A stretch of 47,681 nt of DNA, from NCBI GenBank assembly GCA_017407285.1, contig JAFQWW010000040.1:1-47681 (forward strand), in the 5' to 3' direction. This DNA is from Clostridia bacterium (GTDB lineage Bacteria > Bacillota > Clostridia > Christensenellales > RUG350). Within the stretch, counting starts at the first letter, position 1; each line of letters starts with the position of its first letter. The position numbers were made by a program, and so were the translations under genes. Positions 31,077 through 34,571 of the stretch are shown one piece after another. The notes beneath the pieces were generated by a model. The model worked only from the letters and a program-made list of their open reading frames with translations. It made no database searches and had not been told where the DNA came from.

Positions 31077-31766
31077 TTAACCTTCCAAAAATCTTTTTAC
31101 AACAAAAATAAATTTTCCAAGTTCATCTGCGTAGGAAAAATGTCCTGCCCTATCAAACACAACGAGTTGTGAGTTCGCAATATTCTTGTTAAGTTTTTTC
31201 GCCATATATATTGGCGTAGTCTTATCACGCTTCCCCCAAACGATAAGAGTTGGACAGTCAATATATCTTAAACTGTCGCTTTGATCAAAATTTACGACGT
31301 TAACGAAGGTTTTCTTCATAACACTATTTAGTTCCCTATATTCTTTAGAACCACACTTGCTAACGTCTAAACCTAATTTCTTGCGTATTCTATAAATCCA
31401 TAGTTTTATATAATACTTTATGGATTTTCGAGGCAAAATTCCCGCACTATTACATAAAACTAGTTTTTCAACCAACTCAGGAGTCTCTTTAGATAGATAT
31501 ATACCTACGCGACCGCCAAAAGAGTGACAAATAAAAATCGCACGATTTATCTCCTCTTTTTTTAGTATATCTACAACCCCATAGGCGTAGTCTGAAAGAT
31601 TTAGCGGATAATCAGGATGCCGACTATTTCCAAATCCGTAAAAATCTGGAACTATAAATCTATATCCTTTTAGTGATTTTGCAATAGGCATCATCAACTC
31701 GCCACTTGCGCCCCAACCGTGTAATAACACAACCGGTTTTCCTCTGCCGTACGTAACGTAATTAAT
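31077..31766 (-). CDS. Alpha/beta hydrolase with probable ATT start
   Basis: A soluble alpha/beta hydrolase of about 229 residues. Oxyanion loop LLHGWGAS, nucleophile elbow CHSFGGRVG (Ser), acid loop WGKRDKTTP (Asp) and the late AGHFSYAD (His) form a complete catalytic triad. The substrate is unknown. The only standard in-frame start is a GTG at 31730, but it has no SD and would cut off the conserved first strand (NYVTYGRGKPVVLLHG). The reading frame continues upstream to an ATT at 31766-31764 that shares its A with the TAA stop of rimI (TAATT). A GGAGG lies 6 bases before the ATT. I therefore take ATT as the start. It lies in the ribU::tsaE-to-murF run. Confidence 0.78.
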   Translation of the reverse strand: MNYVTYGRGKPVVLLHGWGASGELMMPIAKSLKGYRFIVPDFYGFGNSRHPDYPLNLSDYAYGVVDILKKEEINRAIFICHSFGGRVGIYLSKETPELVEKLVLCNSAGILPRKSIKYYIKLWIYRIRKKLGLDVSKCGSKEYRELNSVMKKTFVNVVNFDQSDSLRYIDCPTLIVWGKRDKTTPIYMAKKLNKNIANSQLVVFDRAGHFSYADELGKFIFVVKRFLEG

Positions 31767-32206
31767 TACACTCCTCCAATCTCAAAAGAATAAAGATAGG
31801 CATCCTCGCCACCTCCGTAATAGTTTGCCCTCTCGCCGTACTTTATAAATCCAACCTTTTCGTATAACGCTATCGCTGACAGGTTTTTTGCTCTAACCTC
31901 TAAAAAAATATGCTCTGCACCTTTTTCACGTGCAATCTCTAAAACCTTTTCAATGAGCAATAACCCATAACCTTTTCGCCTATAAGCATTTAGGACTGCA
32001 ACACGGAATAATTCACTAGTATCAAATAAAGTGTGCATACAAAAGTATCCGATTATCTCGTCATTAAACACAAGAACGGCGTAATCGTAACACTCGTTTT
32101 CTAAAGATTGGGAAAGTGTGTCCACACTCCACGGATCCACAAAGCACTCTTTCTCTATTTGCGCGACTGTTTCAATGTCGCTATTGGTCATTTTTCTTAT
32201 AATCAT
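31766..32206 (-). CDS. rimI: Ribosomal protein S18 alanine N-acetyltransferase
   Basis: GNAT-fold acetyltransferase of 146 residues. Motifs: the N-terminal IRKMTNSDIETVAQIEKECF, the acetyl-CoA loop AYRRKGYGLLLIE, then EVRAKNLSAIALYEKVGF and the C-terminal ANYYGGGEDAYLYS, which is typical of RimI. The classical target is the N-terminus of S18, though the tsaB-rimI linkage is general in bacteria. It overlaps tsaB by 4 bases. Its last codons contain the SD (GGAGGAG) of the following hydrolase. Confidence 0.94.
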   Translation of the reverse strand: MIIRKMTNSDIETVAQIEKECFVDPWSVDTLSQSLENECYDYAVLVFNDEIIGYFCMHTLFDTSELFRVAVLNAYRRKGYGLLLIEKVLEIAREKGAEHIFLEVRAKNLSAIALYEKVGFIKYGERANYYGGGEDAYLYSFEIGGV

Positions 32207-32763
32207 TTCTTATTTCGTTCCGCTTCAGATGCTCTCATATAAAACGGTTTTGCAAAATCAACGGTTTGATTTTTGTTAATTTTGTCTTCAACTACTTGGC
32301 TTAACGCCTCGGGCGTTAGTGTGGTCACGTCTATCTCAACAGCACCATCGGGTAAAACACCGTCCTCTGCCGTTTTATACGTTAAAGAATTGTTAAATTT
32401 TTCCGCTATATAATAGACGTGTTTTGCGTCAATCGCAAAAATTTTATCATCAAAATTATGATATGCAAAGGGTTCGAATGTCGTGACCTCAACTACGGAC
32501 TTTTTATTAGCATATGCAAACGCATTTACTGTTGCAACGCCAACTCTAATACCAGTAAATGATCCAGGTCCCACAGTAACGCCAAAGTAATCAACGTCGT
32601 TTATCGATATCTCTGCATCGTCTAGCAACTTTTCAATTGCAGGCAACAAGGAAACGGAATGACCTTGTCTAACCGTTTCGCTCTTGTATGAATATAATTT
32701 ATCCTCTACCTTTAACGCTATCGTCAAAGAATCACAAGAGGTGTCTATTGAGAGTACTTTCAT
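32203..32763 (-). CDS. tsaB: tRNA t6A threonylcarbamoyltransferase subunit TsaB
   Basis: ASKHA-fold scaffold that joins TsaD and TsaE to make threonylcarbamoyl-adenosine at position 37 of ANN-decoding tRNAs. The protein has 186 residues. MKVLSIDTSCDSLTIAL, RQGHSVSLLPAIEKLL and GVTVGPGSFTGIRVGVATVN are diagnostic. The C-terminal half is shorter and diverged, as usual for Firmicutes TsaB. Its ATG shares one base with the ribU::tsaE stop (TAATG) and its end overlaps rimI by 4 bases, so the three are strictly coupled. TsaD is not in the window. Confidence 0.95.
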   Translation of the reverse strand: MKVLSIDTSCDSLTIALKVEDKLYSYKSETVRQGHSVSLLPAIEKLLDDAEISINDVDYFGVTVGPGSFTGIRVGVATVNAFAYANKKSVVEVTTFEPFAYHNFDDKIFAIDAKHVYYIAEKFNNSLTYKTAEDGVLPDGAVEIDVTTLTPEALSQVVEDKINKNQTVDFAKPFYMRASEAERNKK

Positions 32764-33749
32764 TATCTATCCTCTTTCGTAATAGTTATTTTACGTTTTT
32801 TGCCGTTTGTTTCGATATTTACGGTATACACTCGACCTAATATTGACGGCATTCTATTCCACTCGACGATACATATTCTATCTCGTGAAAAATATTCTTC
32901 AAAGCCTAAATTCTCAAGTTCTTCATCGTCTTCAATTCTATACATATCAAAGTGACAAAGTTTACCGTCTAAATATTCTTTTAATATATTGAAAGTAGGA
33001 CTCAAAACGTCCTCTTTAACACCAAAACTTTGCGCAATTCCTCTAGCAAAAACAGTTTTACCTGCGCCAAGATCGCCGTTTAATAGTACGGTATCTCCAA
33101 AATTCAATTCTTTAGCAAACGCCTTTGCTAAACTTAGAGTTTCGTTTGCGCTATTCGTGATAAAAACGTTCTCGCTCTTAATATCGTAATTCTTCTCTTT
33201 TTTCTCGGCAACGCCAATAAATCGGAAAAACTTATGTATTTGTTTGTATAAAAGAAACGTTAATATAGAATTTGCACCCGCTTTCACTAAGTTAAATAAA
33301 AGTATGGCAGGAATCATACCTACGACAACCTCTATTGCAATTCCACCAAAAAGTGGGTGTGCTAACAAATTTGCAGGGATAATTACGACCATCCAAGAGA
33401 AAAATCCGCAAATTAGAGCTAAAATAGCGCCTTTTATGTTTCTTTTTCTTTGATAAATAAGCCCCGCCACTAATGCGTAAACGCCAGTAGCTAGTAAATG
33501 CATAATAAATCCGGTCAATCCCGAGCCACCCATTGCAAAGGCTTGTATTACGCATACAACGAAGGTAATAATCAGTCCGGACACAGGACCATACATAAAG
33601 GTCCCTAAAAATATAAAGACGTCCGCAACGTCGTATAGCATATAGTTTGGTGTAAACGGAAAAGGAAATTGTATTCCTAAAGCTAAGCTAACGATGCTAA
33701 GCGCCGATAGCATCGCCATTCCAGTCAACATTCTAGTAGTAATTTTCAT
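32763..33749 (-). CDS. Fusion: riboflavin ECF S component (RibU-like) and TsaE ATPase
   Basis: One 328-residue frame joining two normally separate proteins. Residues about 1-175 are a six-helix ECF substrate-binding protein of the RibU type (PFTPNYMLYDVADVFIFLGTF, GPVSGLIITFV). Residues about 190-328 are a complete TsaE, the ATPase of t6A synthesis: Walker A GDLGAGKT (225-232), SPTFNILKEY, HFDMYRI and VEWNRM. The linker AEKKEKNYDIKSENV is hydrophilic. There is no Met between M145 and M269 and no GTG/TTG near the linker, so TsaE cannot easily be made alone. An FMN riboswitch and terminator precede the gene (SD AAGGAG). TsaE would thus be tethered to the membrane and repressed by FMN. Confidence 0.9.
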   Translation of the reverse strand: MKITTRMLTGMAMLSALSIVSLALGIQFPFPFTPNYMLYDVADVFIFLGTFMYGPVSGLIITFVVCVIQAFAMGGSGLTGFIMHLLATGVYALVAGLIYQRKRNIKGAILALICGFFSWMVVIIPANLLAHPLFGGIAIEVVVGMIPAILLFNLVKAGANSILTFLLYKQIHKFFRFIGVAEKKEKNYDIKSENVFITNSANETLSLAKAFAKELNFGDTVLLNGDLGAGKTVFARGIAQSFGVKEDVLSPTFNILKEYLDGKLCHFDMYRIEDDEELENLGFEEYFSRDRICIVEWNRMPSILGRVYTVNIETNGKKRKITITKEDR

Positions 33750-33774
33750 TTGTTAAACTCCTTCCGTACCCTTT

Positions 33775-33802
33775 TAAAAACCCCTATACGAGGCATAGGG
33801 GT
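33775..33802 (-). terminator. Riboswitch expression-platform terminator
   Basis: An 8-bp perfect hairpin (33780-33787 with 33795-33802, 7-nt loop) followed by a run of Us on the minus strand, 26 bases before the ribU::tsaE ATG and just after the FMN aptamer. The flanking GTACCC (33799-33804) can instead pair with GGGTAC (33766-33771) next to the SD. Confidence 0.85.
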
Positions 33803-33808
33803 ACGCTT

Positions 33809-33914
33809 GATATTCTCTCATCCAGACTATACTGTCGGTCAAGGAATTACACCTTGTCTGCTTACGCTCGTGGACTTTTACCACCGGTGGGGACTTTCAC
33901 CCCGCCCCGAAATC
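33809..33914 (-). promoter_or_regulatory. FMN riboswitch (RFN element)
   Basis: On the minus strand the conserved RFN blocks appear in order: TTCGGGGCGGGGTGAAAGTC, CCACCGGTGGT, AGTCCACGAGC, GGTGTAATTCC, ACCGACAGT and AGTCTGGATGAGAGA. The closing P1 stem is GATTTC with GAATATC (one bulge). The ligand is FMN, which normally favours termination and shuts down riboflavin transport or synthesis. It begins 18 bases after the deoC stop. No promoter is evident between them, so it may also act on read-through from pdp-deoC. Confidence 0.97.
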
Positions 33915-33932
33915 TATATGGAATTCTGTTGT

Positions 33933-34571
33933 TTATCCTTCGACGATTTTATCGCCGGCACTCGTGCCGAGTCTAGTCGCTCCAGCATCTATAAGTTCTT
34001 TCGCAAAATTGTAATCTCTAATGCCTCCGGCAGCTTTTACTTGACATTTGCCGTTTACTGCCTTCTTCATAAGTTGAACGTGGTGAACGGTTGCTCCCGT
34101 TCCAAAAAATCCAGTTGACGTTTTAACGAATGCAACGCCTGCGTCTGCGCAAATTTCGCAACCTTTTACAACTTGCTCGTCCGTTAAATGACAGGTTTCT
34201 AATATAACTTTTAGAGGAACGCCACACGCATCAACTATGCTCTTTACGTCACGATACACGTAGTCGTAATCTCCAGATACGAGTCTTGACACGGGAATAA
34301 CAACGTCGACCTCTTCTGCACCACACTTAACCGCATATTCCGCTTCCTTTGCGCGAATAATCGTTTCACTCTCTCCGAAAGGAAAACCTGCAACGGACAC
34401 GGTCTTTATATCACTACCTTTCAAAAGTTCTTTAACTAAGGTTACGTAATTAGGATTGACACACACAGAGTAAAATCCATACTTTAGTGCAGATTCACAA
34501 TGTTTCTCAATATCAAAAGGCGTAGCCGTAGTTTTCAATATGGTATGATCTATGTATTTTGCTATATTCAT
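33933..34571 (-). CDS. deoC: Deoxyribose-phosphate aldolase
   Basis: Splits 2-deoxyribose-5-phosphate into acetaldehyde and glyceraldehyde-3-phosphate in deoxynucleoside breakdown. It is a class I aldolase of 212 residues. The Schiff-base lysine is in FVKTSTGF, with VKAAGGIRD near the C-terminus and DHTILK at the start. The upstream gene pdp supplies deoxyribose-1-phosphate. The SD is GAGG. The FMN riboswitch follows directly without an intervening terminator. Confidence 0.95.
   Translation of the reverse strand: MNIAKYIDHTILKTTATPFDIEKHCESALKYGFYSVCVNPNYVTLVKELLKGSDIKTVSVAGFPFGESETIIRAKEAEYAVKCGAEEVDVVIPVSRLVSGDYDYVYRDVKSIVDACGVPLKVILETCHLTDEQVVKGCEICADAGVAFVKTSTGFFGTGATVHHVQLMKKAVNGKCQVKAAGGIRDYNFAKELIDAGATRLGTSAGDKIVEG

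Follow-up and report, generated by a model that had tools for sequence, protein, structure and literature searches.

A recurrent fusion of the riboflavin transporter subunit RibU and the t6A ATPase TsaE, encoded behind an FMN riboswitch

In Firmicutes, the gene for RibU (YpaA), the riboflavin S component of ECF transporters, usually follows an FMN riboswitch (PMC4418817, PMC3766115). TsaE (YjeE, YdiB) is the ATPase of the bacterial TsaD-TsaB-TsaE t6A machinery, on which the accuracy of translation depends. In a contig of 47,681 nucleotides from a Clostridia bacterium (JAFQWW010000040.1, analysed at its full length and here called the window), an initial annotation made from the letters alone described the two proteins as one chain behind such a riboswitch, and proposed that t6A synthesis is tied to riboflavin status. 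The locus raises the questions of whether the joint is genuine, where it came from, and whether TsaE is placed under flavin control by it. The features concerned are as follows.

33933-34571, minus strand: deoC (TIGR00126), the upstream neighbour
33806-33918, minus strand: FMN riboswitch aptamer (RFN element), RF00050, 105.2 bits, complete model, 14 bases past the deoC stop
33776-33802, minus strand: terminator-like hairpin and U-tract, -14.7 kcal/mol, z -4.3, the likely expression platform
33758-33763, minus strand: Shine-Dalgarno sequence AAGGAG, anti-Shine-Dalgarno duplex -11.9 kcal/mol
32763-33749, minus strand: ribU-tsaE fusion gene, 328 amino acids, a single open frame with an ATG start, identified by Pfam and NCBIfam; AlphaFold mean pLDDT 89
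33222-33749, minus strand: RibU half, residues 1-176, an ECF S component with AxxxA at 12-16
33156-33221, minus strand: linker, residues 177-198, with no ATG, GTG or TTG; pLDDT about 63 over residues 171-190 and below 50 at 181-183
32763-33155, minus strand: TsaE half, residues 199-328 and stop, Walker A at 225-232
32203-32763, minus strand: tsaB (TIGR03725, 109.4 bits), 1-base overlap with the fusion, the conserved next gene in relatives
31766-32206, minus strand: rimI (TIGR01575, 112.5 bits), 4-base overlap with tsaB, the conserved next gene in relatives

The fusion gene and its domains

The frame runs for 328 codons without an interrupting stop from the ATG at 33749, which follows the strong Shine-Dalgarno sequence. 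Pfam places ECF_trnsprt at residues 6-168, ECF-ribofla_trS at 2-172 and TsaE at 199-319, and the TsaE half scores well above the cut-offs of both PF02367 (124.9 bits, cut-off 26.6) and NCBIfam TIGR00150 (117.6 bits, cut-off 60.1). Searched against PDB sequences, the RibU half returns RibU entries only (3p5n, E 1.4e-15; TmRibU, E 1.9e-13), and the TsaE half matches TsaE/YdiB (5np9, E 1.1e-24). Frame, Pfam, NCBIfam and PDB matches agree with the annotated RibU-type S component joined to a full TsaE in one 328-codon frame, and the overlaps of tsaB and rimI, of 1 and 4 bases, were likewise recovered from the open reading frame coordinates, the tsaB start lying on the last base of the fusion's stop codon.

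Conserved motif residues are present in both halves. The AxxxA motif in helix 1 of S components serves in docking on EcfT; A12 and A16 are both present in the RibU half, and A16, together with N127 and N153, is invariant among 23 fused proteins. In the TsaE half the Walker A sequence GDLGAGKT begins at residue 225, and K231, T232, D268, E296 and W297 are invariant in the same 23 proteins. An AlphaFold model made with 23 fused homologues has a mean pLDDT of 89, low confidence at about residues 171-190 and a pTM of 0.58, which therefore indicates two well-formed domains whose mutual position is unfixed; Foldseek aligned this model to TmRibU with a TM score of 0.88-0.89 and to TsaE with one of about 0.7. 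Binding and import of riboflavin by the RibU half, and a role of the TsaE half with TsaB and TsaD in t6A synthesis, are predicted from sequence.

The leader and its riboswitch

The window's RF00050 match covers the entire model (1-138; cmscan) and reaches 105.2 bits, where the gathering score is 66.2; the conserved structure and core nucleotides are present, and non-standard pairs fall almost all within helix P1. The aptamer is complete, as first described, with the original limits (33809-33914) a few bases short of those of cmscan, whose positions are used here for RFN elements in general, as a regular expression misses many loci. The terminator reported after it also held up: the hairpin at 33802-33780 (-14.7 kcal/mol) is followed by five U, and none of 200 shuffled sequences equalled it (z = -4.3). 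It is absent from the list of a simple terminator scanner, and promoter and terminator scans of this region of the window did little better than chance and yielded no usable prediction. When the complete leader is folded, the structure of minimum energy favours a competing helix, CGTACCC/GGGTACG, which is compatible with a switch rather than proof of one. By analogy with the riboswitch family, FMN binding would lower expression. Because the deoC stop lies only 14 bases from the aptamer, the riboswitch may sit inside a longer operon. In the window the deoC side of the aptamer spans 33919-34571; deoC is likewise upstream in genomes G002, G004 and G345, and it precedes the riboswitch in several relatives (loci L004, L138 and L140).

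Recurrence of the fusion

Homologous fusions in relatives, which the annotation had left to a search, proved numerous. Of 396 genomes sampled from the same order, 42, spread over 15 genera and 6 families, gave the single-chain form with a profile of fused proteins. They were counted by hand, each having one unbroken frame across the two domains, which in one case is truncated by a contig end; frame analysis confirmed 37 fused genes and then four more. By the same profile and hand count, about 27 further genomes of the order have a single tandem match with stops between the genes. Sampling of about 750 genomes from elsewhere in the phylum, in other orders and classes, revealed no fusion. Fused proteins are 31-46% identical to that of the window, with linkers of 14 to 98 residues. 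Within the window's own family, G001, of another genus and 48% identical, carries the same fusion, and in G002 ribU and tsaE adjoin unfused behind an RFN element.

That two genes had been joined by assembly or binning might be suspected, since most of the genomes are drafts in tens to hundreds of contigs. The same joint in 42 genomes, on some contigs of hundreds of kilobases and with the same flanking genes, refutes such an artefact, to which we give a negligible probability. A single fused locus of family f24 (L065, in G279) combines an RibU of the type seen in family f3 with that family's HWEG linker, while other examined members of its genus are unfused; horizontal transfer and a misbinned contig are the candidate readings there. 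At two loci of family f8 (L026 and L029) ribU and tsaE are adjacent but on opposite strands.

A separate intact tsaE, which the annotation named among the findings that would refute its proposal, was not encountered. In the window's genome (G000), which is only 84% complete, a TsaE, a match to the fusion and an RFN element occur once each. Across 41 genomes, PF02367 gave exactly one match over its cut-off in each, at the fusion in fused genomes; extra matches were short P-loop stretches of about 35-55 positions.

The riboswitch accompanies the fusion nearly as regularly. An RFN element was found in 40 of the same 41 genomes, and where the genes are fused it lies immediately ahead of the fusion (the contig of G252 stops short of the gene start, placing the position of the element beyond view). 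At four more fused loci, it was found in G126, G345 and G004, and in G261 none was found in a stretch reaching about 1.1 kb upstream (L139). G001 has the fusion and no RFN element detected anywhere in its genome; its fusion (L003, L132) lies behind a different gene set. The annotated association is thus present at nearly every fused locus tested, and since no RFN element was found for G001 and G261, the fusion does not need the riboswitch.

A probable origin from an unfused operon

Five tandem loci in genomes of other orders and classes (L141-L145) show the arrangement RFN-ribU-tsaE-tsaB-rimI without fusion, with the same riboswitch and genes as in the window and with ribU and tsaE separate. 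The operon is thus wider and, most simply, older than the fusion, which would have grown from it; this spread could not be seen from the window alone. At one of these loci (L141) the tsaB and rimI queries both match one open frame of 382 amino acids, a possible tsaB-rimI fusion.

Trees of the two halves speak for repeated change. In a tree of 55 TsaE sequences at least five changes of the fused state are required, of which well-supported branches force three, and the RibU tree, which included one badly cut row (G131), has at least eight label changes; such changes do not tell gains from losses. A single origin is rejected, the constraint holding fused TsaE together giving an AU p of 4.1e-6. 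In genus g63 the TsaE halves form one group and the RibU halves do not (AU p 4e-44). The trees disagree, so in G153 and G199 (L019, L020) the RibU half of the fusion comes from a different clade: within one genus the S component was swapped. A different kind of S component had been considered for f3 genomes in which the first match covered only residues 145-313; a profile instead shows a RibU type of another clade. In genus g83 of family f32 the fused linker ends in a Met that aligns with the first residue of the unfused TsaE of G187, as would be expected if ribU had lost its stop.

These same findings bear on a serious rival to any benefit from coupling, namely that the fusion arose neutrally from two neighbouring genes read in the same direction, with a riboswitch so leaky that the flavin level does not matter appreciably for t6A. 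The cell would tolerate a lost ribU stop because both ends of RibU are cytoplasmic, and the small ribU-tsaE gaps in unfused relatives, the wide spread of tandem operons, the repeated appearance of the fusion and its presence in G001 without an RFN element all fit such an origin. Its persistence across long divergence (31-46% identity to the window's protein, 15 genera), even with a RibU half of another clade, is less readily expected under neutrality, as is the confinement of the fusions seen to one order when the same operon occurs outside it. We regard neutrality as somewhat unlikely, and the coupling as a hypothesis that it seriously challenges.

Translation of TsaE

If the riboswitch acts as its family does, its control of TsaE follows where no TsaE is produced free of RibU sequence. 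In the window, Met occurs at residues 145 and 269 with none between, and the nearest alternative starts are GTG155 and TTG215, as the annotation's claim of no Met in this interval and no GTG or TTG in the linker requires; a start at TTG215 would cut the beginning of the TsaE fold. As the linker has no start codon, every TsaE chain from the window must include some RibU sequence. The Shine-Dalgarno sequence before M145 is moderate (-7.0 kcal/mol), and initiation there could, on sequence grounds, yield a shorter chain comprising the last helix and TsaE.

Elsewhere the situation is mixed. A strong Shine-Dalgarno sequence precedes an in-frame start near the TsaE half in 13 of 37 fused genes examined, and essentially none does so in 11 of the 37. 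Many fused genes of family f3 have GGGAGGG shortly before an in-frame TTG, 10-15 codons ahead of the TsaE domain, with an anti-Shine-Dalgarno energy of about -10.7 kcal/mol, the strength of true starts; G279 has an ATG at the corresponding linker site. GGGAGGG falls within the codons of a linker peptide, HWEGxSL, just before the TTG (L036, L051, L060, L073, L075-L078 and other f3 loci), where it marks a possible internal TsaE start; the Glu codon of the peptide is mostly GAG, against about half elsewhere in those genes. Two products, full-length RibU-TsaE and free TsaE made by internal initiation or linker cleavage, would place much TsaE off the membrane, and the low-confidence prediction of the linker, like the f3 and G279 signals, is in keeping with this. 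HWEGxSL is conserved as protein, with varied leucine codons, so the f3 Shine-Dalgarno sequence may be incidental, and, like that of the window, the linkers of G153, G199, G262, G389, G188 and G318 contain no ATG, GTG or TTG. For the family as a whole we consider two products unlikely. The annotation's tie between riboswitch and TsaE therefore stands in part: among the genomes tested an RFN element is just upstream nearly always and this TsaE is the sole one, but G001, in which no RFN element was detected, and the strong internal start signal in about a third of the fused genes examined speak against a strict link.

Riboflavin physiology of the hosts

Among twelve genomes (ten fused, two tandem), lumazine synthase was found in none, against 14 of 14 controls; riboflavin kinase was present in 11 of the twelve, and EcfT (PF02361) in all, one each. 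The window's genome has an EcfA1-EcfA2-EcfT cluster, with two ATPase genes beside EcfT. Given the absence of lumazine synthase, the sole biosynthetic enzyme searched, the genomes look like those of riboflavin auxotrophs living by uptake. Some fused genomes have a second RFN element, and behind it another ECF S component, 210-230 amino acids or so in length (L127, L128, L131), so the fusion need not be the only riboflavin route.

A proposed function for RibU-TsaE

The reading that we favour, and hold to be probable, is of a bifunctional RibU-TsaE membrane protein, derived from the older operon and lowered by the riboswitch at high FMN, in apparent riboflavin auxotrophs with a single TsaE. One chain would comprise a riboflavin-binding S component, a flexible cytoplasmic linker of about 20 residues and a complete TsaE ATPase, both halves being active; it would have arisen more than once from FMN-riboswitch - ribU - tsaE - tsaB - rimI through loss of the ribU stop. 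Plentiful FMN would cause the riboswitch to lower transcription or translation of the whole chain, and TsaE would be produced at the membrane in constant proportion to the importer, possibly to the cell's benefit. As both ends of S components face the cytoplasm, tethered TsaE should lie on that side of the membrane. FMN control of t6A synthesis is plausible in these terms; with an essential enzyme under a repressing riboswitch, the control may be leaky or weak. The hydrolase and MurF-like genes downstream are, as in the annotation, candidates for the same control.

A more direct signal from flavin to the translation machinery can be imagined, in which riboflavin binding or docking of RibU to EcfT alters the availability of the tethered TsaE. 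Other S-component-fold membrane proteins with C-terminal soluble domains do act as receptors (PMC11109136), but linkers of 14 to 98 residues and a pTM of 0.58, with no fixed arrangement, speak against tight coupling, and we think such gating very improbable. Hardly more probable is a flavin-responsive hub in which the riboswitch would set the amount of TsaE by FMN, RibU occupancy or docking would set how much TsaE reaches TsaB-TsaD, and translation capacity would track vitamin B2 in obligate auxotrophs.

Relation to known systems and significance

The fusion resembles ordinary RibU in its six-helix S component (best PDB matches SaRibU 3p5n and TmRibU 5kbw), upstream riboswitch and separate EcfAA'T module, and differs in that the chain runs past helix 6 into a soluble P-loop ATPase. 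It resembles ordinary TsaE in its complete domain, Walker A and other motifs and the tsaB and rimI that follow; TsaE is normally a small soluble protein, whereas here it is covalently joined to a membrane transporter subunit behind an FMN riboswitch. With 5TMR sensor histidine kinases and other S-component-fold receptors it shares an S-component-type membrane domain with a C-terminal cytoplasmic domain (PMC11109136), but its membrane half is RibU by sequence and its soluble half a tRNA-modification ATPase, not a signalling domain. Non-biosynthetic targets are listed in a survey of 842 FMN riboswitches, which mainly names first genes, and tsaE does not appear in it (PMC4418817), and the sections consulted of a t6A review report no such fusion (PMC9654439). 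In the open-access literature nothing relevant was found on RibU with TsaE, on an FMN riboswitch with tsaE or t6A, or on a riboflavin transporter with YjeE, and neither operon nor fusion is described there, an absence that within that scope counts only weakly towards novelty. The fusion is real, recurrent and, within the literature covered, undescribed; the two protein families and the riboswitch are themselves known.

In summary, vitamin uptake and an essential tRNA modification step, not known as linked, are joined by gene order, riboswitch position and, repeatedly, a covalent bond. A 2024 study described S components as ending at helix 6, and for related receptors it proposed that toppling is limited by soluble domains at the C-terminus (PMC11109136); RibU-TsaE would depart from the former and put the latter to the test. 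An S component with a C-terminal soluble enzyme is relevant to the toppling of S components in the membrane, and a t6A enzyme is expected at that membrane. The hosts are a group of gut-type bacteria that apparently have no vitamin B2 synthesis, and, should t6A be under the control of the riboswitch, flavin analogues aimed at the riboswitch would lower a translation factor as well in these bacteria.
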